NCBI GenBank assembly: GCA_030247885.1
Contig: JAPDRO010000005.1
Span: 682,001-746,000, forward strand
Source of the DNA: Taxawa tesnikishii (nom. ined.)
Taxonomy: Eukaryota > Ascomycota > Dothideomycetes > Dothideales
Direction: 5' to 3'
Length of the DNA: 64,000 bases
Positions 1-23,458 of the stretch are shown in pieces. A model generated the notes under the pieces. That model did no database searches. It saw only the letters and a program-made list of their open reading frames with translations, and was not told the DNA's origin. Position numbers and translations under genes: made by a program. Every line of letters begins with the position of its first letter. Positions within the stretch are counted from its first letter, which is position 1.

Positions 1-1
1 T

Positions 2-286
2 GCTCCGCTCTTCACCTACGGTCTCGGATACCGCATGTGCGCAGGCAGCCTGTTGGCTAACAGGGAGCTATACCTCGTCTTCATGCGCATCCTGAGCTGC
101 TTCGAGCTCCACAAGGCCAGCGACATTACCGAGGATTTCGTGGACCCGGTCAAGGGGAGCGCAGACCCGACGAGTCTGGTCACGATGCCCAAGCGGTACG
201 AGGTCAAGTTTGTGCCGAGGAATGAGCGCATCTTGAGGCAGAAGTTGGAGGAGAGGAGGAAAGAGCTGGAGGAATCGGATGTGTGA
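2..286 (+). CDS. Cytochrome P450, 3' end only (CYP504-like, phenylacetate hydroxylase type)
   Basis: The window opens inside this gene; only the last 94 codons are present, ending at a TGA at 284-286. The first residues carry the heme-binding loop F-T-Y-G-L-G-Y-R-M-C-A-G, matching FxxGxxxCxG, with the axial cysteine visible. After it comes LLANRELY followed by a conserved C-terminal beta region ending in Lys/Glu-rich residues. The segment C-A-G-S-x-L-A-N-R-E-L-Y and the later D-P-T-S-L-x-T-x-P-K resemble the CYP504 family, which hydroxylates phenylacetate at the 2 position before the homogentisate pathway. The P450 assignment is firm; the CYP504 assignment is from memory of the family and less certain. 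These enzymes are normally ER-anchored by an N-terminal helix, which lies outside the window. Confidence 0.85.
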   Translation, partial: APLFTYGLGYRMCAGSLLANRELYLVFMRILSCFELHKASDITEDFVDPVKGSADPTSLVTMPKRYEVKFVPRNERILRQKLEERRKELEESDV

Positions 287-652
287 GAGAGGCTTGATGT
301 CTATAACTATCCAAAATCAAGGCGATTATTTGGCATCGCGAAGTGTGGCTGAAAAGAGCGATGCATTTGATTGAGTGTATGAAGAATGGCTTATCTCAAA
401 GCTTTGACATTCCTTGGCGGTGGACCATCCAACCCCTCCGACACGTCGACACTGCGAGCATTCAGTCTTACTCAAGTCCTTGTGTACAAGGCAGGTTTTG
501 CTCTATCCCTGTCGCAGTCTCGCCTCAAGTCGCCCTTCGTGCCGCACCCTTGTACTCAAAAGAAGCAATGAAATGAAGCAGCCAGTTGTATGCTAGCGGA
601 CCGAAGCTGGACCAACCTTCGGGGACGAGCACGTAGGGAGCAGGACCACAGT
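287..652. other. Intergenic region
   Basis: Between the end of the P450 and the likely start of the glycosyltransferase gene. I see no further gene. An in-frame upstream ATG at 590 could extend the next gene by 21 codons. Confidence 0.5.
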
Positions 653-2988
653 ATGCCACATCCCTCGCGCATATATCCCAGAGACGAGGAGCTCGGCAAG
701 CGCGATGACAACTATAGACCCTCAAAGAATGCCTCCGCAAACTGGCACTGGCGCGCACCTCTGCGCTGGCGCAAACGACGTCTCGCAGCCGGCGCGCTGG
801 GCCTTTTCCTCGTTTGGCTGTTCATACACAATATCCCAACCGATCTGGGGACGATAGACGAGCGCATGGGACATGCGCTACGGCCCGGACATACCGTGTC
901 TGGGAGAGGATTTGGGTACGCGCCGGCGCAAGACAAGGGTCCAAACGGTATGCCCATGGGTGCTCCGCCGCGGACGAAAGATGACGGATATGGGGGAACA
1001 ACGGAGGAGGAACATTACTTTTCTGGCCCGATCAAGTTCTACAAGCTCGCGAGATCCCTGCATGGCATTGCTAGGACTATGGGGTATAGGCAGCAGAACA
1101 GAAATGTCCTGTTTGCGGCCTCGAGTCTGAAGAGCGCGGCGAACCTGATACCCATGGCGTGCGAGATGGCGCGCTGGGACAGGAACTACGTCCATCTGGC
1201 CCTGTTGGGCAGGGAAGCCATGTCGCTGGAAGACGTGCTGGATGTGAATGGAATAGACACGAAGACCTGCACTGTTTTCTTCCACGACGGCAGGCCAGAC
1301 TATTCCGAGTACAGCACGGATATCAGAGCAGAAATCTCAGTGGCTGGCGCGATGAACCATATCGACAAGTTCATGCATCCGCAGGTCATCATCACCGACG
1401 ACTCGGCCGTGGAAGATGTGTTCTTCGTCCGAGGCATGAGATCGAAAGCGAAAGCTCTCGAAAGACCGATCATTGAGGTACCGAAGGGCAAGTATGAAGA
1501 CCTGTTGTGGATGAGTAGGTTGGATAGCGGAAGCTTGGCATCATGGCACAAGCCCAATATCAATATTCTGATCCACGCGCCGCCCGAATCGGCGGGCTCT
1601 CTGATAAGGAGCGTAAAATCCCTCGAGAAAGCCGACTATGCAGGCCTTACCGCGCCTCGCCTTACCATCGAGCTCCCTTTCCACATCGACCCATTCGAGC
1701 GTCGGTATTTGCAAGAACTTGAGTGGCCGCCGAACGGCGACTCGTTGGTACCGCACACTTCTACACTCACGCTGCAGCATCGCGTGGCACCCGGGAAGGC
1801 GACTACAGAATCCAATGCCGTCCGTTTACTCGAGTCTTTCTATCCTAGCAGCTCTTCGGATTCTCACGTCTTGTTGTTGTCTACACAAACCGAGCTCTCG
1901 CCTCTCTACTACCACTTCCTGCAGTACCTCATCCTCGAATACCGGTATGCGTCATACGGTCCTGGCGACCACGAAGCTCTCTTCGGCATTGCCTTGGCTA
2001 CTCCAGCCACCTACCTCAACGGCAGTGCACCATTTACTCCACCCTCGATCAAAGACATGGGAAGCGACAGGTATGCGAAATCTGCCAAAGACGCCATCCC
2101 GGACCAGCCGGTACCATTTCTGTGGCAAGCGCCCAACGCAGACGCAGCACTCATCTTCGGCGACAAGTGGGCAGAATTGCACGACTACCTATCCAACCGT
2201 CTGCGCGTGAGCCACGAGAGGTCAGCGCACGCGCCCGAGAAGCGGAAGAAGGAAGTCGCAGAAGACCAACCGGGCTGGATGGAATACGTGCTCGAACTCA
2301 TGCGGGCGCGCGCCTGGAGTCTTCTCTACCCAGCCCCCGGCGACGCCGGAAGCTGGGCCACCGTGCACCAGGACCTATACCAACCACCCGAGGAATTCTC
2401 CATGCCGGCCAGAAACCCGAGCGCGGAGGACGATGACGACGCCGGTGCGGACACGCCGGCGGCGGCGGCGGCGGTAGCGGACCTCAACGAGCCCTTCCTG
2501 CGCGCCGAGACGACGACGTCGGCGAAACCAACCTCGAGAGAGGAAAAGCCGGCGGCGATGCAACACACGCAGCCGCTGCAGCTGCTCCTCCCCTTCGACG
2601 GCGACCTGCCCGCGCTCGCTCACCTCCCCTCCTATCCCACTCCGGCACCCTCCTCGGCCCCGGCGGCGCCGACAAGTCCGACGCCCTGGCCTCGGCCTTC
2701 CGCCACGAGTTCCGCGCCGACGTCGGCGGCTGCGACCACAGAGCCGCCGCCAGGCCGCGCGTGTCCCACAAGGGCAGAACGGACGATCTGTTCTGCTTCG
2801 CGGACGTCGAACCGCAGTATGCGCACGACGGAGGCGATGTCGAGGGGGACGCGGATCGGGACGAGAAGACCGCCGAGGCGATCGCGGAGCAGGAGCCCCC
2901 GTGGACTTTGAATCGGCACGCGCTGCTGTCGCGGGAAGGGACGCGAAGGGGGAAGCGGGCGCTGCTGGGCCGGGGAAGGGTCAGGTGA
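653..2988 (+). CDS. Conserved fungal glycosyltransferase-like type II membrane protein (one apparent frame break)
   Basis: The protein starts with a short basic cytosolic tail containing IYPRDEELGK, then a signal anchor of about 20 residues (AAGALGLFLVWLFIHNI), then a luminal domain. This is the layout of the widespread fungal protein usually annotated as a family 2-like glycosyltransferase of the secretory pathway. An upstream ATG at 590 is in frame, but 653 gives the usual N-terminus. The frame is open from 590 to about 2626, then the conserved C-terminus (S-H-S-G-T-L-L-G, then T-D-D-L-F-C-F and E-P-Q-Y) continues in another frame to a TGA at 2986-2988. The switch falls at a run of four C at 2626-2629; one more C reads H-L-P-L-L-S-H-S-G and gives 778 residues. 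No intron signals lie at the switch. The acceptor substrate is unknown. Confidence 0.7.
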
Positions 2989-3560
2989 AGACGTCTAGGC
3001 CGACGGTCGGGCCGGTTGTTGAGGACGTGGTGCGCCCGGGTCGCTGGGCCGGATAGCTGATGGGGGGGAACACGTGCACTGATACGGAGATGTAATGCCC
3101 CGTGTTCTTCTCCTTGCTCGAGAACTGCTCCGTCTGAATAGGAGCGGGAGGTTGATGTGCTGCTTGCTGGTGTTGCGAAGAAGACCGGGGAGAAGGGGGT
3201 CATCTGGCCTTTCGAGTGCTTGGACGACCAGCAAGAAGCCTATGGCTTGCAAGTATGATTCCATTGTCGGCGCACGCGCAGCGCGGCGATTGCTGTTTGC
3301 GATTTCCATCAAGCGGCCCATGTTGTGGAAAGGTCAAAAAATAATGATGGAAACTGGCAAAGAGGAAAGTTGACTGAGATAGATGTATGCATTAGATTCA
3401 ACGCGAACCCAGCGGGTGTCTGCGGTCTATATATTTTACTGACTAGATGCAAAAAAGAGAAAGAAAAAGAAAAAAACCATTAACAGTATGGGGTAGATGA
3501 TGATCCCGCATAAGACGAACGCCTTGACAAAACAAAAAGCAAAAAACAAACAGAAAGAGA
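2989..3560. other. Convergent 3' intergenic region
   Basis: Shared downstream region of the glycosyltransferase gene (plus) and the adhesin gene (minus). It holds a run of seven G at 3062-3068 and an A-rich stretch with AAAAAG repeats at about 3449-3478. I see no gene in it. Confidence 0.5.
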
Positions 3561-6158
3561 TCAAGTCTCTGAGCCCCAACTTGGGAAAGGAGTTCCCAAG
3601 TAACTCATACAAGGGAAGCGTACAACGTCCACCGTGGAACTACCCGTGTTCATCCCAGCGTTGGTTTGCATCAAAGCGCTGCCGTCAGGGGCGTATATGT
3701 TGAACGACATGTTGCCCTGGCCACCTCCGTTGCCCCACATCAACCTGACGGGGGTGTAGGTGCCAATGGTCAAGTTCAGTGTCAAAGTCGTCGGCGTTTG
3801 AGTGGTCTGTCCCGAAGTCCAGTACTGCACAATGTCGGCGTTGGTTCTGGTCCAGCCGGAGACGGCTTTGTTGCCGAGCCACAGGAATTGGATGTCGTCT
3901 ACGTAAGGGAAGTTGAAGCCGTAGTAACCGGTCTGACGCGCGAAGAGGTAGAAGACGTGGTCCAAAACACCCGTCGACATGTCCGCCGAGTTTCCGTAGA
4001 CGTTGATAGCCGTAGTACCGGAGTTGGACTCTGCTATGTAGTCGGTCGTTCCATTGAACTGCGGCGATACGCTCTTGTACGCTTCGGGCAAGAAACTTGG
4101 GTAACCTGCCGTATTCTGTCCGCCAGGAGCCAGGTTGGTGTACTGTGCATAAGCAATGTACTGGTTGTTGCAAGTCGTGGCTGGTGTAGGGTAGACAATG
4201 ACAACAGTGCCCGTGGTAATTACACCATTCTTACTCGTAGCCGTCTTGGACGTGCTTGTGCCCACAGTGCTCGCCTGGCCGGAATCTGTGGTGATGGTGA
4301 CGTAGGATGATGCTGCGACTGTGCCCGGGGTTTCCACCAAAACAGTACCCTGAGTACCTTGAACGATGGTCGTCGTCGTCGTCGATGCACCAGTCCATGC
4401 GGTGGTCTTAGTCGTGTATGTGACTTTGACTGCTGTTTGCGAGGTTGTCTGATACACTGTGACAGTTGCCATGCTTGTGCTGGTTGTTGGGTAGACAGTT
4501 GTCGACGAAATCGTGCTGCTGGTCCAGGTTGTGTATGTTGTGGTGTAGGAGTAGGGCTGGAAGACTTCTACGGTGGCGGACGACGCACCGGCTGTGTGCG
4601 AGAAGGTCGTGGTGCTGGCAGTCGATGCTGTCACGTAGGACGTTGTGGTGGTGGTTTGGACAGGGTAGTATTTAACAACTGTAGCTGACGATCCAGTTCC
4701 TGTAATAGTCGATGTTGTTGTGCCGGTCTGGCCATCCACATACGTAGTAGTTGTCGTGTACGAGTATGGCGATTCTACAAGGACGGTGGCGGACGGGCCG
4801 GTGCCTGTGATTGTTGTGGTTGTCGCCGCTCCTGCGTAGTACGTAGTCGTTGTGGTGTATTGGTATGGTGATTCTACTACAACCGTAGCCACGGAGCCAG
4901 TCCCAGTATTCGTCATCGTCGTTCCGGATCCTGCGTAGTACGAGGTCACCGTGGAATAAGTGTAGGGAGCATCGACCTCTACCGTAGCTACAGAGCCAGT
5001 TCCGGTGCGCGTGGTGGTTGCTGTCGTCGAGCTTGTCCAGTAGGAAGTGGTTGTCGTGTAAGTATACGGAGCATCAACCTCGTAGGTCACTACAGATCCC
5101 GACACAGGGTAAGTCTTCGTCGAAGTGGACGCGCTTGTCCAGTAAGAAGTGACAGTGGTCGATGAGTATGGTCGATCAACCTCAATAGTTTCCACAGAAC
5201 CAGTGCCAGAAAGAGTCTTAGTTGTTCCGGCGGTAGCTGTGACGTAGGAAGTAACTGTTGTGTAGCTGTACGGAACGTCAATCACGTAAGTAATAGCTGT
5301 CGATCCAGTCGTGGTCTGTGTGGCGGTCTTGGATCCGGTGTAGTACGAAGTGACTGTTGTCGAAGGGTATGGCACAACAACCTGGTAGGTGATGGCCGAC
5401 GATCCGGTGACAGTCTTTGTGGTTGTCGAGGCTCCGGTGTAGTATGAGGTGACGGTTGTAGAGCTGTAGGGAGCATCCACCTCAACTGTCGCCACAGATC
5501 CCGTAGCGGAGTCTGTCTTCGTGGTCGCGACCGATCCCGTGTAGCCATAAGAGGTGATTGTGGTGTAGCTGTATGGCGCATCGACCTCGTATGTAATGAC
5601 GGATGATCCAGTGATGGTCTTTGTAGTCGCAGTAGAGCCTGCGTAGTACGAAGTGATAGTCGTGGAGGAATAAGACTTCGATGAAGCGACAGACGAAGCA
5701 GCAGAAGAGTGGACCGACGAAGACGATGAAGAGCTTTTGACAGCGTATTGTTGATTGACAGCAACAATTGTACTAGTGGAGCTTGAAGCCTCAGCGCTAC
5801 TGGATGAGGCGGCGGCGGCGGCGGATGAGCTGGCGACTGGCGTAACAGAAGATGCAGAGGATGGTGCGACAAAGGAGCTGGAGCTCGAAGCGGCGGCCGA
5901 GCTGGAAGACAGCGCGACGGAGGGGCTCGGGGATGGAGAAACCGAAGAAGAAGAGGCGGCTGAGCTGGAAGACAGTGCGACGGAGGGGCTCGGGGATGGA
6001 GAAACCGAAGAGGAAGAGGCGGCCGAGCTTGAGGATACAGTCGCAGAAGAAATCGAGGCACTGTCGCTCGAGATTGATGCCGCTGCAGAGGAGCCACTGT
6101 TGATAACGCTCGAGGAAAGATCGGCTGAAGCAGAGCTTGACGTCGGTGCTGCGGAAGA

Positions 6159-6191
<33 letters not shown>

Positions 6192-9100
6192 AGTGATCGC
6201 TGCCATGGAGCTGCTGTCACTTGTGGTTGTGGAGCTGTCCGCAAGATCGCTCGAAGATGCAACGCTTGAGCTTGCGCTGGTGGAGCTGACGAAGCCGTCA
6301 CTGGACGATGATGCCATAAATGAGCTGGACAGGCTGCTGAGAATGTCACTGGAGGTTGCTGCGGCAGATGAGACAGCGGAGTAGGGCATGATGCTGCTCG
6401 ACGTTGCGTTGCTCGCCATGGAAGCCATGATCGAGTCAGACGGCAGACTTGCGGTCGAGACCGGGACCGAGGTAGACGAAGAGTCCACGTCAGAAGAGGT
6501 GATCGCAACCGAAGTCGTCGCTGGATCAACCGAGGAGCTGAAGCTTGAGATCGAAGTGCTGCTGGTGGTAGCGTTCGATCCCACATATCGGGCGCCCCAG
6601 ACCTGGGTGTTGTATTGTCCGTCCTGAACCGAGGATTTCATATAACAGGCAACGCCCGAGTAAGAAACGTCCACACATCCCGGCGTATTGGCACAGTCCT
6701 CCATACACTTGTCGAACGTCTGTTCTTGAGTAGAACCCATGTCGCCTCCGAAGCGGTCGTTGTAACATTCGATGAGGAATTGATCGCCATTGCCTGCGGT
6801 GTAAACAGTGTTGTTGCCAGACGGACATATGATTCCAGACTTCGTTGGGCTGGTACTTGAGGTGGTTGTTCTGGACGCGCTCAGGGACGAAACATCGGTT
6901 GTTGTTGCCGTGCTGGATGGTATGCTGGAGCTGCTCTCCTCAAAATCCTCATCATCAGCGAAGCCTGCCGAGCTGCTCATGCTGGACGTGGCGCTAGCGG
7001 TGCCGCTGAATGAACCGCTGGAACTGAAGAGAATGGATTCGGAACCAGCCGCGGAGCTAGTGGTCTCAGAAGCGATGCCGTCAGAAGAAATGGCTGAAGT
7101 CAAGTTCATTGGAACATCAACCCTGTAAGTAATCGTGGAGCCGTTAGATGGAAGCATTGTTGTTCTGGTCTCCGAGCCAGTCCAGTAAGAGGTCACGGTG
7201 GTAGTCTCGTAGCGGACAATCACTTGCGTAACTGAGCTGGAAGAGGTTGATGAGACTGAAGAGGTCGAAACGCCAGCGGAAGATGTGGCACTGGAGGTTA
7301 TATCGTCGTCAGAGGCCGAATCGCCGTCCGAGCCGGTATTGGCAGAGCCCTTTTCAACGAAACCGGCGTCATCGTCGCTTGAATCTCCTGCTGAGGAGCT
7401 AGTGGCGGCGGCGGATGAGGTAGTGCTGGAACCGGTGGAGAGAGAGGACGATGATGAAGTCGGGTTGGCAATAGCAGATGCATTGCCAGAAAAGCTTGGG
7501 AAAGCAGAGATGGAGGAAGCAGAGGGGCACTCATAGAGTTGCTGCCTGTTGCGGACAAAGAAGACGGGAATGAAATGGTGGTAGAAGTGGACACTGAATC
7601 GCTGTCTGCCAGAGAGAGCGAAGATGAAATGGCAGTCTCGGACGCCGAGGAGGCAGAAGTCGTTGATTGATCATCTGCTATTGTGAGGGAAGAAGAAAAG
7701 GAAGTCGATGAGACAGTGAGTGAGCTGTCACTGGACGTCGCGGATATAGACGATGAGGGAGCGGCGGAGGAACTGCTATTCGCTGCCATGAACGGCAATG
7801 AGGAGCCCACAGACGCCATTGTCGAAGGAGATGCAGATGAAGTTGGGGCCGCGAGAGACGAAGTTGACAGCAGCTTACTGGACGAGCTCTCGTCCGCCGT
7901 CTGGAAGAGCGCGGACGAAGTCGTGTAAGCAGGCAAGTTCTGCATCGTCGAGGACATCTCATACGAGGATGACTGAGCTGTTCCAGTAGTGTTCGCAGTT
8001 TGGAATGACGCAAACGAAGTTGCTTGAGCGGCCGAAGTTGAGTTATCTTCTGCTGTTGCAGTGGACGAACTAAGGTTCGAGGTACCATTCAAGTAGCCAA
8101 TGAAACGTCCTCCACTGACACCGCTATTCTTTGATGGGGTATTGATCTCAGATTTGAGATAACAAGCGGAGCCTGAGAGTGTAACGTCCTTACAGCCGGA
8201 AGTAGAGGCACATTTATCGAAGCATTGCCAGAGCTGGCCAGGATCAACAAATGTAGGGCTTCCCGACATGTCTCCACCGCCGCGGTCAACGCCACACTCA
8301 ATGAGGAACTCCATGCCGTTGGAAGAGGTATAGATGGTGCCGTTGTTGTCAGGGCAGGTAACTGTACTGATGGTAGCGGTGGGAGTGGCGGAAGTAGTCA
8401 GAGACGCAGACGACGAGATAGAGCCAGCTACCGAAGTGGCACTCATGTCGGTAGAGGAGCTCGCGATGCTCGATCCTGAGGCAGTTATCGAGGCACTGGT
8501 GGCACTGGTGGCACTGGTTGCGGCTGTGGGGAAAGCTGATGGGCCGGCGGCGGTCGAGCCATTTCTTGCTGTGAATGGCGCCGAGGAAGTGGAGAACGAC
8601 ATAGTCGAGGAACCAACGGTCACACTAGTCGCGCTCATCTCAGCAGAAGTGCTTGCAATGCTGGAACCAGAAGATGAAAGCGAGAAGCTGGCAGCCGTGG
8701 GGAAAGCCCATGGACCAACAGTAGAGGTACCATTGTTCGACACCTGGAATGGCACCGGTGAAGTCGAAACGGCCAAGGAAGACGAGCTCTCGATGGAGAA
8801 GCCGGCAATGCTCAGAGAGGATGAGGTCGCGGAGCTGGCAGCTGTGGGAAAAGCCGATGGACCAACAATAGAGGAACCGTTGCTTGCTACCTGGAAAGGT
8901 GCTGAGGATGCCGATGTTGCTGCAGAAGACGAGCTGGCGGCTGCGGCGGTGGTATCTGACTTAGCGGAGGAGCTTGCAATGCTCGAACTAGAAGTTGAAA
9001 CCAAGGAGCCGGCTCCTGTGGGGAATGCCGATGGGCCAGCCGTCGAGGAGCTGTTGCCGGCCACCTGGAACGGCGCCAAGGAAGTCGAAAGGCTCGCGGT

Positions 9101-10411
9101 TGGCGAGTTGCCGGTAGAGGCTACAGACGATGTAGATTGGACAGAAGTCGCAGAAGTACTGTTCGCAAGCGTAGAAAGTGCCGAGAAGCCCATGCTGACT
9201 GAAGTGGTTCCGTGATCTACCGTGGTCGACGTCGATGAGTTCCAAGCAACTGTCAAAGAGCTGCTGTCCGCAGAAGTTGAATCAGCAGCACTGATCGTGG
9301 CAAAAGAGGAATTGTTGGAAGCGACAGCTGTAGCAGTGGTGTTCAATGCAACTGATGACGAAGTTTGGGGTGCAGTGGAGGTGACATCGTCGGCTCTGAT
9401 AGAGGAGCTGCTGACCGATCCAGATGGACTAAGCGACGCAGTGGAGGTGTTTCCGTTCATGGAAGAACCATGATCAAAAGCACCTAGGGAGTTGGTGTAG
9501 GACGTTGGGAAAGCGTGAGCCATGGCGAAGGAAGCGTTGTTGCTTGACGTGTAGGGTGCCAATGGGGTGGAGGACGTGCGGCCTGCCGTACCCGACGCCG
9601 TGCCCGTCGCAAGGGTAGAGGGAACTGCGCCAATGTAGACTGTTCCAGTCTGGTCATCACCGGTAACGGTTGTGGTCGAGGCATTGGCACCGGCGTAGTA
9701 TCCGTAGATTGTCGTGTACGTATACGGGACGTACTGATCGATCGTCATCACGGACTGAGACGATGCGGTCACTGGCTCAGAGTGCAGGGAAATTGTCGAA
9801 CCACCGTACCCCATAGTGCGAACCACTCTGATGTATGGCACATACCGGTTGATAGTCATCACAGTCGCCGAAGTGGAGATTGGCATTGTGCTTTCGGAAG
9901 TGGTTGTGCCGGTGTAGTACGTAGTACGGACAATTCTGACGTACGGTTTGTAAACCATCTCAGTAATCATGTTTCCAGTGCCAGCGGGCATGTCCGATGT
10001 GGATGTCTCGGTTCCCGTGTAGTACCCGACCACAACAGTAGTGGAGTACAAGCTGTTGCTTTGACTGATACCACTTCCACTAAGCCCAATGGAGGTAGCG
10101 GTAGCTGATCCGTTGAAGTTACTTGCCTGATTGTAAAGTCCAGTAGAAGAGGTGCTTGCCTCGGCTGACGAGGGCGCAGAATCATCCGAGGTGGTGGTGC
10201 TCGAGACGGAGGTTTTGGATGAGGAGCTGGAGACGCTTGATGACGAGAGCTCGAAAGAAGACAGCGAACTTGCGGATGGAGCAGAAGAAGAGGCCGAAGA
10301 AGAGTTATCGTCGTCTCCCTGAGGCTGCGGAGTAGAGCTTGAAGCATCGCTGCTGCTGCTGCTGCTTGTTGCAACGTAGTTGTTTGCCAAGTCGAGGCCA
10401 GTCGACAAGGA

Positions 10412-10442
<31 letters not shown>

Positions 10443-13400
10443 TTACTGCTGCTACTGCTGCTGCTGCTGCTACTGCTGCTTGCATTGCTAGTGGATGAAG
10501 CCTGGCTTGCTGTAGTCGATTCTCCAGATGATGTCGATGTGCTTGACGAGGTGGCGGCATCTACGGTAATCGAAGCTGACACGGACGAACTCGCATAACT
10601 GCTGCTGGTCCCGTCTGATCCCAGAGGCGAGGTACTACTTGTTACAGCGGTTGTCGAGCTGGCGACATCTGCAATTGCAGAAATCAGGGATGAAGAATAT
10701 GCGAAAGAAGAGCTGCTGAGAACCACGGAAGAAGCAGCAGAAGAAGCGGTGCTGCTCATATGCGAAGACAAGCTAGAAGAACTGCCAGAGTTGGATGAAA
10801 CCCGCTTGGCCGACCAAATTTGCATAGTAGAGCTGTCAGCCCCAGGAATGAACTTTGGTTGAGCATATGCAGGCTTGAAGTAGCACCACTGCTGATCCTG
10901 TCCCACTGGAACGTAGGTTACACCTTGGCATTGTCCAGAAAGTCTGGTTTCGCATTGTTGGATACAGCTCTGGAAGCTCGTGGCAACAACCGCGGTCTCG
11001 CGGTTTGTGTCGTAAAGGTCGTAACTGCAGTAGATAAGGAACTGGCTTCCATCCGCCTCGGTATAGACCGTGCCGTTACTGCCAGGGCAAGTCAGAGATG
11101 TTGGGCTAGGTGAGGTGACGGCATTCACAGTCGTCGAAGCCAACGATGAGGAAGCCGCGGCAGAAGAGCCACTAGATGACACTAGAGACACAGCAGAAGA
11201 GGTGGTGCTTGCAAATACAAGCGAGTCAGAAGTGCTGCTAGAGCTGAGCGAGCTTGACGAGCTAGCAACAACGTTTACGGTTGAAGAGTCGGGGTTGGAT
11301 CCAGTCGAAGAGGCGATATTCGGGTTTGCGGATGAGCTGACCAAGCCGGACGAGGCGACGCTGCTGTCAGCGGTAGCGCTAGACACGATCGAAGAAGTTA
11401 CAACTTCCTCCTCGAGGGCCACAGATCCGGACAAACTGGACGAAGCAACACTAGCAGATGTAGGTGTGTCAACCTTAGCAACCGTAGTAGATGCGGCCGA
11501 AGAGAACGACGAAGCCACACTGGACTCAGAAGCGGATTGCGAAACTGAGGAAGAGGCGCTGCTGCTGCTGCTGCTGCTGACCGAGGACGACGATCTGGAT
11601 GAGACGGCTGCATTTGTCGCTGATGAAGCAGACTGAGACGTGGAGGAAATTTTTCCAGATTCGGCAGATGGAATGCTGCTCGATGCGCTCTGGGAAGTAC
11701 TGGCTGGCTCAACGTTTTGTACGGCTTTGGCACCGTTAACGCTGATCGCGGACATGCTTGAGGACAAGCCGGCGGATACGCTGTTGCTCGTGCTAGATGG
11801 CATAGCACTCAGATGTGACGAGCTGCTGTACACGTTCGAGAAGACTGCAGAAGAACTGCCCTCAGTTCCAGAGGAAGCGGTCGAAGAGCCGGCTGCGCTT
11901 GAGCTGGTTGTGAAGGGAGCAAGACTGGATGATTCGGCTGTGCTGGATTGGACCGCGGCGACATTTGCATTGACGGCACTAGACGGGTTGTCGGTAGAGA
12001 AGATCGTAGAAGAGGACGTGAGCCAAATTGTGCGGCCATAAGCATTTACCACGAAATACCTTGTGTGGCCTGAAGCGTCCACAGTGTAGCTAGTGTAAGC
12101 ACTGGCTGAGACGCTGCTGGTCACAGGTAAGACGCTGCTCACTTGAGAGGACACCGGGCCTGACTCAGTCGTAGACGAGCTCGGGCTGGAGCTCAGGCTG
12201 GACGAAGCGCTGCTTGCCTGAGATGAAGCTGCAGTGGATTCAGTTGACGACACAGCAGTGGTAAGTCCCGAGTCTAAGGAAGCAGAGGCACTAGAAGAAG
12301 CAACGACACCGTCACTGGAAGTCGTTGGCGAATAGACCGATGACGAGGCAACAGAGGCCCCGCTGGAGGAAAGCGGAGTAGTAGTCGCGACAAGACTGCT
12401 GCTGCTGCGGTCAAGGGTGGACGAAGAACTACTGAGAGACGAGGAGCTTGTCGTAGAGGACACAAAGCTAGAGTACAAAGAGCTCATGTAGGCAAACAGA
12501 CCGCTACTGCTGGATGTTTGAGAGGTGCCGGGGCTCAGAGATGGAGAGGCGGTAGTGCTCAAAACTCCAGAGGTTGCGCTCATGCTGCTTGTGGTGTCGG
12601 ACGAAACGCTGGTGCCGCTCTGTGCTCGGGAGCTGCCAATTAGACCGACGTCGGTATCACCAGAGCCTGATGAAGCAGAGCTACTAAGGGGCGTTGCCCG
12701 TGTGCTCTCCGTTCCGGTTGCAGATTCCGCAGAGATCGATTGGGGAGCGGCGGTGTCATCAGAGACGACCGAGGCAGAGGTGGCGGAAGCGCTGTCAACC
12801 GAAGAGGAGGAAGATGACTCTCGACCGGTAGAGGATTGCGTTGAGGAGATCCACTGACACACCGTGGAGCCATCACGCTTCACGATGGCCTGCTGGCCAG
12901 AAGCACAAGGCCATGGAGACGAGGCGGCAGATGCACTGGCTGCCTGCGAGGATGGCTGAGCAACAGAAGACACCGCAGAGGCGCTCGAAAGAGAAGAGCT
13001 GGTTGGTGACTCTACGGGTACGGCCTTTGCGTCACCTACGCCAGGGGACGCAATCGAGTACATTGGTGACGTGCTACCGGCCGGAGATGGCGTTACTTGG
13101 GTCGAAGTTGTTGATTCGCTGTCGGCGCTCGCTGCGGGATCGGCAGAGAAAGTAGTGGAGGCGGTAATCCATCTCGTACGACCGTAAGCGTCCACGACGA
13201 AATACCTCGTATGACCGGCAGAATCAACAGTGTAGCTCGTATAAACAGCCGAGGCGTTCGGGTCGTCTGATACTGTCACGCTGGCAGCGGATGTCGGAAG
13301 TGGGCTACTGGGGGACGCAAGAACCTGCGAGGACAGAGCAATTTGTGATGACGAGGAAGCCTGCGAAGATGCACCCCGCAATGAGGAAGCTTGCGATGGA

Positions 13401-15951
13401 GCAGAAACTTGCGATGACGCGGAAACTCGAGATGACGAGGGAACCTGCGATGACGAGGCTCTTGAGCTGCCGTCAATAGACCCCAAGGAAGAAAATGCGG
13501 AAACTTGCGCGGACACTGGAGTGGTGCTGGCGGCAGATGTCGCAGAAGGGGTAGATGATATCCACCTCGTCCGGCCGTAAGCGTCTACAACGAAATATCT
13601 CGTCTGGTCGGCAGAATCAACTGTATAGCTGGTGTAAACAGCCGAGGTGTTTGGATCGTCTGCTGGGGAGGGATCGTTCGAAGAAGCTGTAGTGATGGGA
13701 CTGCTCAAGGATTCGCTGTCCTGCAACGAGGTCGTCGGGTTACTGTCGATAGAGCTCGCGGAAGCCGAGTTGGATGGCGTTGTAGAGGAGCCAGTTGGAG
13801 AAGAAGATAGCCACCTTGTGCGGCCATAGGCGTCGACAGCGTACCCACCGTAAGTGTTGGTTGACCAGTAATCACTGGAAGAGCTTGGTAACGGGATAGA
13901 CGAGGCACTCGGGTCGACCGATGTGGAGACAGTGTTCGCATCGTTTGAGACGGTGGATTGTGCAACCGAGGCCACGCTCGTCTCCGATGGGAGTGCGGAA
14001 GACGATGTGGAAGACATCGATGAAAGCCACCTTGTGCGGCCATACGCGTCAACCGCGTACCCACCGTAAAGATTGGTTGACCAGTAGTCACTAAAAGAGC
14101 TGGTTGACTGAGCAGAAGAGGAACTCTCGATATCCGATGACGGGGCAGCAGAGCTTGTCGAAGACATCGAGGAGAGCCACCTTGTACGGCCGTAAGCATC
14201 GACGGCGTAGCCACCATAGAGATTTGTGGACCAAGTGTCGCTAAATGACGATTGAGTAGGAGGAGCACCGTTCACGTCCGAAGATGAAGCGGGCGAGACC
14301 GAAGAGGTCGTTGACGACATTGACGAAAGCCACCTCGTGCGACCGTAAGCATCGACGGCATAGCCGCCGTACAGATTGGTTGACCAATAATCGCTGGATG
14401 AAGATCGAGAAGAAGCAGCGCCGTTCATGTCTGATGGTACAGCAGACACAGGACTGTCCGACTCAGATGGCAGCGCAGGGGAGCCAGCAGGAGTGGTAGA
14501 TGAAGACAACGAGCTTGTGTGACCATGGGTATCGGTTGAGTAACCACCGTACGGGTTGGTCGACCAATAATCGCTGAACGAGTATTGAGACGATGAGGTA
14601 TCATCTGTCGCCGATAGCATTGCGCTGGTGGCAGACGCCGACGAAGCAGAGGGAGAAGTGGAAGACAACCACCTAGTACGTCCATAAGCGTCTACCGCAT
14701 AACCACCATACAGATTGGTGGACCATGTATCGCTGAAAGTGCCAGATGATGCAGGCGATCTAGCGGAAGAGGCTGTGTCAGTCTCCAGTGACGTCGCAGC
14801 GGAGTCACTGTGATAGCTTGGAGAAGACGACGAAGCACTGGGATCGACCGAGCCGCTTGGGTATGCCGATGGTGCAATGTTACCTACTTGGGATGATGCC
14901 GTGGGGTAACCGGTGAGAGAGGCTGTAGAGAGCCATCTCGTGCGACCGTAAGCGTCGACAGCGTAACCTCCGTACAGGTTGGTAGACCACCAGTCACTGA
15001 AAGAACTAGTCGAGCCCGACAAAGCGGAATTTTGGGAAGGGTCGCTGTCAGAAACCGAAGAAGTTACTGTCCCGGAAGATCCAATCGCACCAGCGCCGTG
15101 AACAGCTGTAGACGATCCTGCATCGCTAGATGCCATATTACTGCTACCTGGCCCAGCCAGTGTAGCCGACGCGGTTGATGGAGTACCTTCTTGTTCGGTT
15201 GGATTCGCAGAGTTTGCCGGAAGTGCCGCCTGCTGAAGATGATGAACCAGCATAGTTGAATTGCGCATCGACTGAAGCATCCGTCGAAGCGAACCCTGTA
15301 CTCGATCCAGCAGCAGATGCACCGCTTTGTTGCGAAGAGACAGATTTCGATCCTTTGCCAGCGGAAGTGGAGGAAGGGGGATCATTGTCGTTGTTCGCAT
15401 CTGCTGATGACGATGAATCTTTCGACGAGTCCGCGGACGAGGAGGACGACCAGGCTGTGTTGGTGACTGATGCACCATTCGTACCCGACGAAAGCCTGTT
15501 CGCCGAAGTGGAACCGCTCGCATCCGATGCAGGTGCGGAGCCAACAGAAGAGGTTGAAGCCGGGGCTGCTGTGGTTTGAGCAGATGGAGGATAGCTGCCG
15601 TCCGCTGTTGTGGAGGTTGCTGTTGGAGAAGGAGGGAAGACCCAAGCAGTGTTGCCAGTAGGTCCCCTTTCAAGTAAGTAAGTCACTGTGGTTGTGTTGT
15701 ATACCTTTACCAGAACTTCACAGGTGCAAGTAGCCTCATCGTTAGAGCCGTCTGGGGCCGTTGATTGCGACCCGGTGCTGCAGACATGTCAGTTGGTGTT
15801 ATGTATGCGTGGTCAGAGAGCACACTTACACGGCTGCCCATGACTTCCACGCCGGTTGCGATTGTGCTTCTGACGAGTCTCCAGATGCGTGGACCAGGCC
15901 TTTACAAACCAATAAGAGAATAGATGACGCGCGAAGAAAGAAATGACCCAT
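3561..15951 (-). CDS. Giant secreted Ser/Thr-rich adhesin-like protein with PAN/Apple-like modules and a C-terminal GLEYA domain
   Basis: The protein begins at ATG 15951-15949 with a signal peptide (MGHFFLRASSILLLVCKGLVHA). Exon 1 ends at 15830. Intron 15829-15778 has GTAAGT, a CTGAC branch and CAG. The reading then runs to a stop at 3561, about 4,100 residues. In order: Ser/Thr-rich stalk; seven STNLYGGYAVDAYGRTRW repeats; three related YTSYTVD repeats; PAN/Apple-like module 1; poly-Ser; four YYTG repeats; four APFQV repeats; module 2; module 3; poly-Ser; about 13 YTTVTSYYTG flocculin-like repeats; GLEYA domain. There is no C-terminal GPI signal. The frame changes twice. Near 15.19 kb there is a net +1, which a poor-donor 46-nt intron 15186-15141 could explain. 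At a G4 run, 7524-7527, one base seems missing. The frame is the same before the first switch and after the second, so I read one gene. Likely role: cell-surface or matrix adhesion. Confidence 0.8.
3570..4175 (-). other. GLEYA domain of the adhesin
   Basis: It starts with C-N-N-Q-Y-I-A-Y and holds the core YYGFNFPYVDDIQFLWLG, then S-G-W-T-R-T-N-A-D, the usual lectin-like GLEYA signature (PA14-related, calcium-dependent sugar binding in yeast adhesins). It is the last domain, ending 6-10 residues before the stop. That is the reverse of yeast adhesins, which carry it at the N-terminus with a C-terminal GPI anchor. Confidence 0.8.
4340..5680 (-). repeat. About 13 flocculin-like repeats in the adhesin
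   Basis: Units of about 33-36 residues follow the pattern Y-(S/T)-(S/Y)-T-T-(V/I/T)-T-S-Y-(Y/W)-(T/A)-G-S-x-T-T-T-K-T-x-T-G-(S/T)-x-x-(V/I)-x-V-(D/E)-x-P-Y. They sit directly before the GLEYA domain. One further unit lies alone at about 7110-7215. The pattern resembles fungal flocculin-type beta-rich stalk repeats. Confidence 0.8.
5896..6021 (-). repeat. Two tandem 63-bp units in the adhesin
   Basis: Two nearly identical 63-bp units encode a 21-residue Ser/Pro block containing VSPSPSPSVAL. They differ by only a few bases, so the duplication is recent. Confidence 0.8.
6159..6191 (-). repeat. CTG trinucleotide repeat (poly-Ser) in the adhesin
   Basis: About eleven CTG units on the plus strand read as AGC serine codons on the coding strand. 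Confidence 0.85.
6580..6832 (-). other. PAN/Apple-like module 3 of the adhesin
   Basis: A cysteine-bearing segment with C-P-S-G-N-N-T-V-Y-T, then Q-F-L-I-E-C, a C-x3-C pair (KCMEDC), G-C-V-D-V, A-C-Y-M-K and a final I/V-W-G-A-R-Y-V. The spacing matches the fungal PAN/Apple-like fold used for protein or sugar binding. Confidence 0.65.
8085..8360 (-). other. PAN/Apple-like module 2 of the adhesin
   Basis: Same order as module 3: C-P-D-N-N-G-T-I-Y-T, E-F-L-I-E-C, C-F-D-K-C, G-C-K-D-V, A-C-Y-L-K, G-G-R-F-I-G. Confidence 0.65.
8519..9080 (-). repeat. Four APFQV...GPSAFPT repeats in the adhesin
   Basis: Four copies of A-P-F-Q-V-x-x-N-(G/S)-(S/T)-S-x-x-G-P-(S/W)-A-F-P-T lie at roughly 9012-9080, 8838-8902, 8694-8757 and 8519-8583, separated by Ser-rich spacers of similar length. 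Confidence 0.8.
9625..10045 (-). repeat. Four YYTG-type repeats in the adhesin
   Basis: Four diverged units with (Y/G)-Y-(T/A/G)-G-(T/S/A) followed by Thr/Ser and ending in x-x-Y-(V/K)-P-Y. They are related to the 4.3-5.7 kb block, but more diverged. Confidence 0.7.
10414..10482 (-). repeat. Imperfect CTG/CTA trinucleotide repeat (poly-Ser) in the adhesin
   Basis: CTG units interrupted by CTA and TTA on the plus strand encode a serine run with one asparagine. A shorter CTG tract lies at about 10347-10364 and another at about 11560-11580. Confidence 0.8.
10815..11095 (-). other. PAN/Apple-like module 1 of the adhesin
   Basis: C-P-G-S-N-G-T-V-Y-T, Q-F-L-I-Y-C, C-I-Q-Q-C, C-Q-G-V-T-Y, W-C-Y-F-K and I-W-S-A-K-R-V appear in the same order as modules 2 and 3. 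It is the longest and most diverged of the three. Confidence 0.65.
12027..13650 (-). repeat. Three type B repeats (YTSYTVD...VDAYGRTRW) in the adhesin
   Basis: Copies at about 13559-13650, 13168-13262 and 12027-12115 read Y-T-S-Y-T-V-D-(S/A)-x-x-x-T-R-Y-F-V-V-(D/N)-A-Y-G-R-T-(R/I)-W. The second half, VDAYGRTRW, is shared with the type A repeats; the first half is different. Confidence 0.85.
13811..14996 (-). repeat. Seven type A repeats (STNLYGGYAVDAYGRTRW) in the adhesin
   Basis: Copies lie at about 14934-14996, 14670-14735, 14510-14580, 14327-14395, 14178-14245, 14029-14093 and 13811-13878. Six are nearly identical and usually follow S-D-Y-W or S-D-T-W. The third is degenerate (Y-G-G-Y-S-T-D-T-H-G-H-T). 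Ser/Pro-rich spacers vary in length. I do not recognise the unit from any named family. Confidence 0.9.
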
Positions 15952-18571
15952 TAAGCGGTTGTAGTTTTGTAAGAAGGAAGGAAGGAAGCAAATTAAAGCT
16001 GGACGCAAAGATGGATAATTAATGAATGATTAGACAATTAGCAACAGGAAGCAGGGCCTGGTTCGTGTCGTAAGAGACGGGAATCCAAGTAGATATACGA
16101 AGAATCGATACAGCCTCTACCGAGCCTTTGGCTTGCGGTTACAACATACTAATAATCTTACATTCCCAAGGCAACCCAGAATCGGTCCATGATGGCCTGC
16201 TCCGGCATACGAGAACGCTTCCAGCGTGCTGTGGCAAGAGCTATGCCTTGGGATGGGAAAACTCGTGGTAGCTTGAAAACGCTCACTATCGAGAGACCGT
16301 GGTGCTAGGGAGGCTTGAGAATAGCCTGTAGAATGCATAACGGGTCGTTGATTTGAGTGGAGAAGAGGTTCCTGGGGATTTTGCTTGAGGCCTGGAAGGA
16401 CGACAGACGTTGGAGGTAGAAGGTAGATGGGTTTGGCTAGTGCGATGCTCCAATTAGGCAAGTCGAAGGAAAAGAAGACCGTTGCGGTGGCTGGATCCCT
16501 CCGAGGTTCGGTTCGGCTCTTGGATTTCCGGTCCCTTGGCACGATCGATCTTGCATCGCGCACGGACCGGACCGGCGCCCATCGAGCCACTCACTTCACT
16601 TCCCTTACCCTCAATCTGTGCTGCGTTGCCTCTGGTAGGCCCTCTGCCGCGTCTCTTAACCTCTCAAGGCTCTTCGCGCCGCCGCAGATTCACGATCGTG
16701 CGGAACGCGCCGAATCGCGAACCTAATTGAGACGTAACAGCGCGCGGCACATAGTTCGACATCCTTCCAATACTAATTGAGCCATCCACCAGACCTCGTC
16801 CGACCAGGCTTCGTGTCGCACGCATAGCGCAACGTTCATACAGGATAGTCGCAACGTCCAATACGACACATGGACTCCATAACGGAAACTTCGTCATCCA
16901 AGCCAACGTTATAGGCCTGTGCGGGTCCACCTGGCAAATAGTGCAGGAATTCCTATCAAGCTATGAGGTGCTGGCCAACTACCTGAGTCAGTCGCAAACC
17001 TTAGTAAATCTGTAATTTGCCCGTTCACCCGCTTTGACACGGCCGCATCTGCCTGCATTCAGCAGTGTCGAGCATGGTAGGACTGCTACGGCAGGCTCTT
17101 CCGAATCCCCTGATTCGTGAAGATTTTTCAAAACGTCCTCAGGATGTTACGGGACATCTGTGGAACCGGAGCATTGTGTTGTTATAGCTGTTGAATGTTC
17201 TGTTCTTCTGGACGATTCTGCCGAACTGTCCACCGGCCGGATTAGAGGTGAATATGTTCTTACTCGCGGCTTTTTTTGTCCAGAACACCGTTAGAGGTGC
17301 AAAGTGAGTTTTTGGATGCGAGGTGGTGAGACATTTGGGTCGGCCAGGCTCGGACTTGCAGGATGATGATTGCCAGAAAGAGGTTCCTGTACTAAGCACG
17401 TGGTCGACGAGGGAGAAAATTGGCGGTCTACGCCTCTTCTACACATCGAACTCCCGTGTAGACAATTTGACATAGCATCCGTTCATACAGGAAGCTGCGT
17501 GCACGGCATGGAAAGCTCGAGTCATGACCCTTTCGCTCTCGCTCCGTCTGCCATGCACAAGTGGGACATGCGTCTTGGCGGAGAAGGCTAGTACCGTTCT
17601 CTTATTACGTCTTAGGCCCACTCCGTGGAATGAGGGCCTACAGACCTACCTTTTGTCGGGCCGTCTCCTGAAGACTGCCTGACCCATCAGAGAGATGCCT
17701 TTTGCATGGAAAAGAATCTGTGACCAAGCGCCTACAAGTGATTTCCTTTGTCGGCCGAAATGGTGGCGCAGCGCAACAGGTTACCTTAAAACTTCGCACA
17801 GTCGCCGGTAAGTATCACCAAAGCGTTTATATCATTACTGGAGGTCACAGCGGCTGCATCCTATGATATCCTCATCGGGCAACTGCCTTTACGACCGGGT
17901 CGACCTATTGCGATGAACGCACGTCTTCGAAAATTGTGAACATGCAAACGTCTGCACACTAATCTCCTGTCAGACCTCGGATTGCTTGCCAACTACCGAG
18001 TAATGCAACCTTGTATTGTTGCCTGTCCTACGGGCTCCTCAACTTCCCCGAAATTCCACCGTCAACCATCTCCACTATTTGATTGATGCAGTCCCTCAGA
18101 TCATCTGCGTGCTTCTAGGTACACCATCATCTTGACTTCCACCTCTTGCTCTATCCCGGTGCTCTCAGGGAGCAGGCGTAACGACCCACTCACTGCCTTC
18201 CGAAAGGAGGCAAAGCGACCAACAAATGGTCACACGAAGGAGCGGTGATCATGACCATATTCTCTACTGAGCTGGCAAGCAAGCGTTGCCAGAGGCAGAA
18301 CCGCCTTGGCATGTATGCTGATCACTCTCCAAACAAGTCCGCTGCGTAGTCGACAGCCCAGTATCCTTGTGCTTTCGTGTCTAACAGTTATGCACGGAAC
18401 ACGGATCATGTGCAAGACGAGACGCAAGAATGAGGCCGAATGTAAGCTTTGAACACAAGAGACCCTTCCCTTCCCATCAGTTGATAGCGGCACGGTAATG
18501 ATCCGTTCTGAAGAGAACTAGCTGCTCTGCCGCCTGCTTCAGCGCCGCTTTCCCGCGTTCCCCTTCGCAAT
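15952..18571. promoter_or_regulatory. Long gene-free region upstream of the adhesin
   Basis: About 2.6 kb separates the adhesin start from the stop of the next minus-strand gene, so it is the adhesin's upstream region. A short GGAA repeat lies at about 15975-15990. No conserved protein is readable on either strand; a 157-codon minus-strand frame at 16117-16590 looks like chance. Its length is like the very long promoters of some yeast flocculin genes, which is only an analogy. Confidence 0.4.
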
Positions 18572-19683
18572 CTAAGCTCCGCTCTGCCATTCTTCAACAA
18601 TTTCCCGCGCCCTTTCGCCCGGACAGTCTGCGGGCACTCCTGCTGCCTCCATGTCTGAGACGCTCAGATACGCTGGATACACATCCTCTGATAAGCCGCT
18701 GGGTATGTCCGAGGCGTCCAATTCAGGAGATTCCTCTGGCATATTGCTTTCATTTTCTGGGCATGGCACGGTCAAGTGTCTCGCAAGACAATCCTCGCAA
18801 TCCGTGTTCGTGATCTCTTGGCATCTTGCTGTATGCTGGGGACGCCACGTGACGGTCAGGACGTAGTAGTCCAGCTGATTTGGTCTGCTTTCGTCTCTGA
18901 TCCACCTTTGCTCCTCCCATGTACTCATTCCTGTCCACCGCGTCACCTCCGCCGCTCCGTCCTTTCTTGCACGCATTACCGTCCCGTCGTTGCGTCTGAA
19001 AGTCCACGTCTCGCTCGCCTGTGCCGCGATGTAATCGACTTGATGGCGCTTGCGCTCCAAACTCTCAAATGCGACGGAAACTTCACCGACGCTGTCAGGG
19101 AACCTGCACTCATTGACCCAATCCGCTCCGATCTGCAACGGCGCGTCGTTCTCCCAGCTCCACCAGTCTGTGTGCCTGATTGTGACGGTAAGCTTCTTCG
19201 GCCGAAAATGGTGCATTTCCAAGATTTCGGAGAGGTGAGATCCGTCTTCGAGCCTGCAGAGTTGGGCAAATAAGAGCACGTGCTTGACCTCTATGTCTAC
19301 ACCACGAGCATGCAGCAAATCGAGTGTCTCTTGCATGGACTCAACGCTAGTGACTCGTGGAGGGCTGCGGGTATTCCAGGCAAGATAGAAGGCATGTTCC
19401 GCGCTAGCCCAAGGTATGAACCAAGCTTCCTGGTAGATTTGTCGACAGGTGCGAAGGAGAGCAGTATCAGAGCGACGTGGGGCAAGGTAAGAAGGTCGTT
19501 TGTAGCAGGTTGCGTCGGAATAGGTGCGGGAAGCGTCTTCGTAGTCGCTCAATGCGTAGGCAAAGATTGAATTGCGAATCTCCCCGGCAGAAGAGACAGT
19601 AGAGGACATTCGTGTTGGGGATTGGTGGCGGAAGCGGAGAATGAGAGAGAAGCGAGCTCGTCTTGAGACGATTTCTGCTCCAT
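18572..19683 (-). CDS. Fungal 2EXR-like conserved hypothetical protein (one apparent frame break)
   Basis: The open frame 19609-18572 encodes 345 residues with E-I-R-N-S-I-F-A-Y-A-L near its start and A-L-L-R-T-C-R-Q-I-Y-Q-E-A soon after. These are hallmarks of the 2EXR-like proteins expanded in Dothideomycetes and other filamentous ascomycetes, whose function is unknown. The usual opening C-P-L-L-S-L-L-P-G is readable just upstream in another frame, from ATG 19683 (MEQKSSQDELASLSF). The two join as S-L-L-P-G-E-I-R-N if the run of four bases at 19582-19585 (GGGG on the coding strand) had five, giving 370 residues. As the sequence stands, only the shorter product from 19609 is possible. The C-terminal third is acidic and likely disordered. 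Confidence 0.65.
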
Positions 19684-20170
19684 TGCGTTGAAACGACGTG
19701 TAATTCTGGATGGAAGAAGCAACGAACTAAGTCTGTATATATATTCCATGTTCATGTGCTTGAGGTGTGTTTACTGCTGCGGTTTATGCTTGATCGAGTC
19801 GTAGCCGGCAGGCAGACGGCCGGTCCGTGCCACTTCTGCCTGATTCACGCTGTCTTCACCGACACCATTGGTTGGAACTGCTCTTGGACTCCTCAGTGTA
19901 TGTGCATCTCTTCTTGATGCGGATTGTATGATGAAGTTCGATGATTTGATCATGGTCGAATTGTCGCAGCAGCGATCGCCTTCATGGTGACGAGAAAGCC
20001 CGAATTCCGCTTCCCGTCGAAGCATCCATGTCCGACGCTCTTCTCAACTCTCGCCATCTTCGATGCGCCGCAACACCACGCACGATAGCATATAAAGCAA
20101 GGCAAACTCTTCCCTTTTCACGCAACTGTTCGTTTTCCAATCGGCGATTCCATCTGTCTCCTTCTTAGGA
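19684..20170. other. Intergenic region
   Basis: Between the 2EXR-like gene and the transporter relic. A TATAAAG element lies at 20091-20097 and may be a leftover of the relic's promoter. No gene seen. Confidence 0.4.
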
Positions 20171-22045: not shown

Positions 22046-23458
22046 CTACGAACACCCGCTTCCACTCAGCCCGTGCACGCCACCTGGTGCGATATACGAG
22101 CAACTCGACGTGCCCATGACATCCTTTGCGTTGGGATTGACACCCAAGTCGATATTCTCAAACTCGATGTTGAAGCACGGATGTACCTTTGAGCAACTCA
22201 CGCTGCTGGTCCTGTTGTTCTTTTCCTTGCCGCTTAGGTAACCGGTGAAGTTGACAAACGCGATATTGCTAATGTCCATCAGGCTTGTTCCAGAGGTCTG
22301 CGTGCCATTGCTGCCATTGTCCTGCGTGATAGATGGACCGCCGTCGGCGCCCTCGACCTGAAAGTTGGAGAATTGGACGTTGCGAATGCTGCCCCAGCCG
22401 GCGCCGCGTGGCTGGTAATCGGATTCGTAGGAGGTGTTCTGGTTCACGAGCACGCCAACCCAGGTCTTCATATATGCGCTGTTGTGCATGTCTTCATTGT
22501 ACCGGATTATGCGCACATCGTCCACTATGACATTCTCGACGCTCGAGTCCTCGAGGTACTGTCCGAGACTGCCAATGGCCATACCGTTGCCGCCACGGCA
22601 GGTCGCGTTCTGAACGAAGATGTTGTAGGAGCGTGGCTTGATGGCAATGCAGTCGTCGCCGCCCTGGTAGACAAAGTTCTTGAGGTGGATATTGTTCGCG
22701 TCCATAGTGTCTGAGGGATGTTAGATGGATTCTTGATCGGCGCTGCAAATGTCTTACCAAAGCCGTCCGTGTTCTGCACCCAATTGCTACCATACGGCGC
22801 CTTTGTGGCTGTAGCGTTGCAGTACAGCTCATCGAACCACATGTTGGTGCCATTCATGATGTTGCAGCTCCAGAGAGGTGGTTGCTTGACGAAGAACTTG
22901 TTCACCGTCACGTCGGATACATTCCAGAAAACGAAGGGCATTGGACGGCCAGGTTGGGTGCTGCCTGCCTCTGCTGTGTACCAGGCATCGCCGTTGCCGT
23001 GAATACCACCCGTGCCATAACCGTTGATCTGGATATGGTCACCGGTCAAGACAAAAGACGCTGCGTGGTTCTGAAAGAAGATGGGGTAATGGTTTGCAGG
23101 TTCGCGCCAATACGTGATGTTGTCGGAGAACTAGAAATCGTTAGACGGGCTTCACACGACAAGTCGATGCAGGCATGCTTACGGTCCAAATACCCTTCCA
23201 GTCGATACGGACATCGTTGACCACAGGATTCAGCTTCTGAGCAATCCAGTAGTTCTGGTTTTCAGGGAAGACAATGTTTCCGCCGTTGCCACATTGCCGG
23301 AACGCCTTCAGGATGTTGGGCACATCGTCCTTGGTGCCCCCATTAGCTGTGACAGTGCACTGTCTGCGACCGTTGACGGTGGACTGGCTGACACCGCCAG
23401 CGCTGGCCAGCGATGCCAGGGCAGAAGCTAACAAGAGGGAATAGGAGAGAGAATGCAT
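22046..23458 (-). CDS. Exopolygalacturonase, glycoside hydrolase family 28, secreted
   Basis: Three exons, 23458-23183, 23130-22758 and 22710-22046, are joined by introns of 52 and 47 nt with GTAAG donors, giving 437 residues. A signal peptide (LSYSLLLASALASLASA) opens the protein. The GH28 catalytic motifs are present: N-T-D-G-F-D at about 212-217 (first catalytic Asp), G-G-D-D at about 233-236 (two more Asp) and a Lys in Y-M-K-T-W-V-G. The usual G-H-G motif reads R-G-G-N-G-M-A-I-G-S-L-G-Q-Y. The His-to-Asn form is typical of exo-acting enzymes, so I call exo- rather than endo-polygalacturonase. It would cleave galacturonic acid from the ends of pectin outside the cell. It is divergent from the thioredoxin gene with 362 bp between starts. 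Confidence 0.9.

Follow-up and report, generated by a model that had tools for sequence, protein, structure and literature searches.

A probable giant lectin-type adhesin gene with PAN-like modules and a C-terminal GLEYA domain in Taxawa tesnikishii

The locus and its modules

We analysed a window of 64,000 nucleotides from contig JAPDRO010000005.1 of Taxawa tesnikishii (nom. ined.); all positions below are counted from its first letter. In this window, a giant adhesin-type gene lies on the minus strand, with its start codon at 15951 and its stop at 3561-3563. Exon 1 and three further pieces, B, C and D, give a total of about 4,110 codons. A sequence-only reading had placed a set of modules at 3561-15951; both the set and the coordinates hold, and the present analysis supplies the strand. 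The limits of pieces B, C and D were chosen by us near each of two changes of frame, and the frames were left unmended. From the N- to the C-terminus, the modules follow in the order R1-R2-PAN-R4-R3-PAN-R4-PAN-R4-GLEYA, where R1 to R4 are repeats. The features are as follows.

15830-15951, minus: exon 1, 122 nt, with the start codon and a probable signal peptide; encodes MGHFFLRASSILLLVCKGLVHASG...
15778-15829, minus: intron 1, 52 nt, GTAAGT...CTGAC branch site...CAG; frame restored
15213-15777, minus: piece B, N-terminal Ser/Ala/Thr-rich segment with a Cys-x-Cys pair; 188 codons at 15776-15213
15205-15213, minus: approximate place of the first frame change, a chosen piece boundary; no credible intron
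15205-7526, minus: piece C, open, 2,560 codons with no stop codon
13799-15001, minus: R1 block, seven spaced copies of a 27-residue repeat of the SDYWSTNLYGGYAVDAYGRTRWLSS type; copy at 14578 divergent
12014-13639, minus: R2, three copies of the YTSYTVD..GHTRYFVVDAYGRTRW type, starting at 13639, 13246 and 12100
10799-11098, minus: PAN-like module 1, six Cys; PAN_1 E 1.4e-5 within piece C
9617-10051, minus: four divergent R4-like units; Candida_ALS only at E 0.056
8510-9082, minus: R3, four copies around GP[SW]AFPT
8096-8365, minus: PAN-like module 2, six Cys; PAN_4 E 0.0019, under the cut-off
7523-7526, minus: approximate place of the second frame change, a chosen piece boundary; no credible intron
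7523-3564, minus: piece D, open, 1,320 codons up to the stop of the gene
7116-7223, minus: single R4-like unit
6579-6836, minus: PAN-like module 3, six Cys; PAN_4 E 2.7e-5, 24.6 of 27 bits
5887-6029, minus: 63-bp Ser/Pro-rich DNA repeat, 2.3 copies, 93%; a recent duplication, used as a control
4323-5672, minus: R4 array, 13 tandem ALS-like Thr-rich units of 33-38 residues each, ahead of GLEYA
3564-4196, minus: C-terminal region with the GLEYA domain (PF10528, Epa1 alignment)

The neighbouring gene at 590-2911 (plus strand) is convergent, has 773 codons and matched nothing in Pfam at E values of 1 or less. Its frame seems to shift near 2640 with no intron, as we read it without a homologue. About 30 of the 215 flanking frames listed were scanned, and 13 of them have a Pfam match at E 0.001: HAM1-like (two frames), a sugar transporter, CrcB, MKT1 with an XPG_N piece just before it, DnaJ, haem oxygenase, ubiquitin hydrolase, DCP2, GH28 (two frames) and GST. 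These matches are ordinary fungal gene content. The GH28 (polygalacturonase-type) gene occupies 22049-23130 on the minus strand, with an inferred 47-nt intron. The tRNA and Rfam scans were empty.

Serine and threonine make up 43% of the 4,068 residues. By hydropathy, residues 8-16 form a hydrophobic core (mean Kyte-Doolittle 2.5), so that the claimed signal peptide is retained as a possible or probable one. By the same measure, no hydrophobic, GPI-like tail is seen among the last 40 residues (maximum KD9 1.13). Pieces B, C and D together contain 24 cysteines: 18 in the PAN-like modules, two in the GLEYA region, two in piece B and two standing alone. These last two form an isolated two-cysteine loop at residues 767 and 783 of piece C (12907-12857, minus strand), between R2 copies and outside all the modules found.

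The GLEYA domain at the C-terminus is confirmed. Residues 1186-1277 of piece D align with positions 2-90 of the 91 in PF10528 (E 1.5e-28; 99.3 bits, with a curated cut-off of 26.2), and the match ends 43 residues ahead of the stop. A phmmer search with this region returned five Epa1 chains (E 0.025-0.17), Cea1 (0.18) and BA75_04148T0 (0.22). All of these matches are weak, since an unrelated FYVE-domain chain scored 0.17 in the same search. In the weak Epa1 alignments, VDD of the query stands against ADD and MWGN against FYNN; the coordinating residue of Epa1 is the second N. The loop after N, which helps set the choice of sugar, differs from that of Epa1, so the bound sugar cannot be named. 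According to an excerpt of PMC6308950, DD-N is the calcium and sugar signature of PA14/GLEYA lectin adhesins. The AlphaFold model of the region (pLDDT 32) is too poor to use. No relatives of the GLEYA region were found in two viral, bacterial and archaeal contig collections, where absence means little for a fungal gene.

The three PAN/Apple-like modules are graded differently by Pfam. Module 1 clears the PAN_1 cut-off within piece C (25.3 against 21.4 bits), and modules 2 and 3 fall under the cut-offs of the PAN families (PF00024/PF14295). All three have six cysteines, which align in every module. Of the three modules of the sequence-only reading, one lies above the Pfam cut-off and two lie below it. 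A profile search with the PAN-like modules gave 14 sequences up to E 5, including a microneme antigen (E 0.01), factor XI apple domains (0.09-0.7) and fungal Kelch oxidase chains (0.12-1.3). In a raffinose oxidase of Colletotrichum, as described in part of PMC6519835, a PAN_1 domain occupies the place of a carbohydrate-binding module. By analogy, fungal PAN modules may bind sugars; this is a hint and not proof.

The repeats and their age

The four kinds of repeat could all be counted: seven copies of R1, three of R2, four of R3 and 13 tandem units of R4 with five more apart. The R1 copies contain no cysteine and are separated by Ser-rich linkers of 23-61 residues. R2 has the VDAYGRTRW half in common with R1. 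PDB profile searches gave no credible match for R4 (best E 0.49) or R1 (best E 1), and no relatives of R1 appeared in the viral, bacterial and archaeal contig collections, whose silence about a fungal gene again means little. Two candidate matches for R1 were rejected. MACPF_D3 (PF20785) reached E 3.2e-7 with piece C and 7.1e-10 with the R1 block and exceeded its 25-bit cut-off only when the copies were added up, since none of the stretches passes by itself; a Cas2-like match was likewise a copy sum in which no single stretch passes. The summed MACPF_D3 score on the R1 block (13799-15001, minus strand) possibly reflects a shared short motif, possibly chance.

For R4, an alignment of two units was used, and a three-unit alignment was set aside. 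All ten two-unit stretches from units 1-11 of the 13 match Candida_ALS (PF05792) at E up to 1, the best at 3e-8. One of these stretches scores 18.3 bits and piece D as a whole 16.9 bits, below the cut-off of 25. Structure prediction, which had been proposed for each of the repeat blocks, was run on R4 and gave a low-confidence model (pLDDT 55), too poor to use. The 63-bp Ser/Pro-rich repeat is the longest-period array returned by Tandem Repeats Finder in positions 1-20000.

To estimate the age of the repeats, we counted how often identical residues in different copies are written with different codons, and took the random expectation from the codon usage of the gene itself. For R1, six copies were compared, and the divergent copy at 14578 was left out. 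Their protein identity is 0.90, and the agreement at the first, second and third codon position is 0.92, 0.92 and 0.40. Over 93 nt, the copies are 68-77% identical in DNA to the reference copy. Where residues are identical, 209 of 331 comparisons show different codons, against 0.653 expected at random; 784 of 1,000 simulations give at least as many. When the seventh copy is included, the count is 250 of 412 against 0.639 expected. R2 gives 37 of 64 against 0.634. R4, in 11 of its 13 units, is slightly below random (625 of 985 against 0.678; 15 of 1,000 simulations give no more than this). R3 is clearly below random (42 of 86 against 0.667, reached in none of 1,000 simulations), which suggests that it is younger or partly homogenised. 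In the control 63-bp repeat, codons differ in 3 of 21 comparisons against 0.782 expected.

A protein identity of 90% together with silent differences at the random level suggests that the R1 units are old, were not homogenised by recombination and have been strongly conserved by selection on the protein. Selection for codon variety against slippage may be an alternative for R1; it also requires a conserved protein.

A lectin-type adhesin and its alternatives

The kind of protein encoded here is already known, and its layout is that of the fission-yeast flocculins. Excerpts of the sources describe these flocculins as having beta repeats and, in the common case, a GLEYA or DIPSY domain at the C-terminus (PMC13147542), without GPI signals (PMC6023273, PMC6308950). 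Mam3 is listed in PMC6023273 with 1082, which we take as its length. The likeness to the GLEYA/DIPSY flocculins (the Linder & Gustafsson family; Mam3, Map4), so far as these excerpts describe them, comprises the signal peptide, Ser/Thr-rich repeats, the C-terminal GLEYA/DIPSY domain and the lack of a GPI signal, with both ends judged here by hydropathy only and the layout read across two unexplained frame changes. Unlike the fission-yeast flocculins as described, the present gene has about 4,110 codons, three PAN-like modules, the ALS-like R4 and the repeats R1-R3. The statement of the sequence-only reading that no named protein has this combination is therefore too broad with respect to the signal peptide, repeats and C-terminal GLEYA domain without GPI, but it stands for PAN together with GLEYA: our literature search found one paper that mentions both domains, which lists them in separate table rows in the passages retrieved, and no protein with both. 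What sets the gene apart within the known kind is its PAN modules, its size and R1.

Epa1 and the Flo adhesins with PA14/GLEYA belong to the same lectin domain family, and the DD and N residues of the calcium/sugar pocket of Epa1 align weakly here. Unlike in Epa1/Flo, the lectin domain is C-terminal here instead of N-terminal, and there is no GPI-like tail. The gene does not have the N-terminal lectin domain and flocculin repeat by which an excerpt of PMC8621652 defines PA14/GLEYA Flo adhesins; the Pfam scan of the pieces returned no row for flocculin repeat PF00624 or PF13928 up to E 1, and the C-terminal GPI signal of Flo adhesins is absent by hydropathy. The likeness to Candida ALS proteins is confined to the repeat region, where the two-unit stretches of R4 match; unlike ALS proteins, the pieces matched no ALS N-terminal domain in the Pfam scan and have no GPI-like tail. 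BAD-1 of Blastomyces, by its description in parts of PMC6023273 and PMC3708853, is also secreted, has no GPI signal and carries many Trp-containing repeats. Unlike BAD-1, compared by the same description, R1 is without cysteine, and no EGF-like C-terminus was matched here. In filamentous ascomycetes, nematode-parasitic ones among them, GLEYA proteins are proposed adhesins, and this proposal is the feature in common; in Drechmeria, one of nine GLEYA proteins is upregulated during infection.

Taken together, the gene probably encodes a secreted, wall-associated, calcium-dependent lectin-type giant fungal adhesin. Such a protein would be heavily O-glycosylated. The C-terminal GLEYA domain would act as a calcium-dependent sugar-binding head, and the ALS-like R4 array with the Ser/Thr-rich stretches would form a long stalk behind it. 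Because there is no GPI-like tail, we propose that many weak contacts made by the N-terminal half, with the R1/R2 peptides and the PAN modules, keep the protein in the wall or matrix. On this reading, the protein would bind sugar, form a stalk, be retained in the wall by R1/PAN and mediate adhesion between cells or to a cell surface.

The lack of a GPI-like tail, together with the many modules carried by one chain, also suits a released aggregating factor or matrix protein, whose R1/PAN and GLEYA parts would bridge cells or polysaccharide. We regard this as possible, although Map4 of fission yeast, which likewise has no GPI signal, is wall-associated; according to an excerpt of PMC6023273, it is wall-bound and not released by glucanases.

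As to the claim of one continuous protein, intron 1 restores the frame and the size is about 4,110 codons as claimed, but two unexplained frame changes remain. The modules and the composition support a large secreted adhesin-like protein, but the two remaining frame changes count against a single full-length one. Frame-fitting GT-AG candidates number 15 near 15.21 kb and 25 near 7.52 kb. Their best donors agree at 4 of 6 positions, and no branch-site match occurs among the best 8 of 15 and the best 8 of 25. Introns at about 15.2 and 7.5 kb were therefore rejected. A control filter that demands a branch site and a match at 5 or more of the 6 donor positions passes intron 1 and the inferred introns of the GH28 and HAM1-like genes; on the DCP2 stretch, it returned no intron. 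The two frame changes are thus either sequence errors or real breaks in the gene.

If the breaks were real, the gene would be a decaying adhesin pseudogene whose whole protein is no longer made, as the want of good intron candidates at both places might suggest. We consider this unlikely. The stop-free pieces of 2,560 and 1,320 codons exclude chance as the origin of the reading frame, and the modules are well kept. The net shifts are opposite in sense, and both lie in low-complexity DNA. The convergent neighbour at 590-2911 seemingly changes frame too, which hints at sequence errors in the contig. That two or more adjacent genes were misread as one, as the two changes of frame beyond intron 1 might imply, is highly improbable, since at both junctions (B to C and C to D) the Ser/Thr/Ala/Gly-rich frame hands over without a gap in the space of one or two 90-nt scan windows, and the sequence on both sides is Ser-rich.

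For the wall-associated adhesin, the most interesting part of the gene is the strongly conserved R1 unit rather than the size. An excerpt of PMC8621652 describes the repeats of yeast adhesins as length-polymorphic; unlike these, the R1 copies have diverged at silent sites, and this codon result sets the giant adhesin apart from adhesins with such repeats. We suggest, as a tentative and still doubtful idea, that R1 (with its double form R2) is an undescribed peptide module whose copies are under strong protein-level selection, with DNA diverged to saturation, so that the array is kept from expanding or contracting. It might anchor an adhesin that has no GPI, as a ladder that binds the wall or glycans. 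If this is true, the R1 array would be an alternative of stable length to the repeats that recombine in yeast adhesins. The conserved repeats and the PAN modules in the N-terminal half of the giant adhesin offer concrete, separable candidates for attachment.
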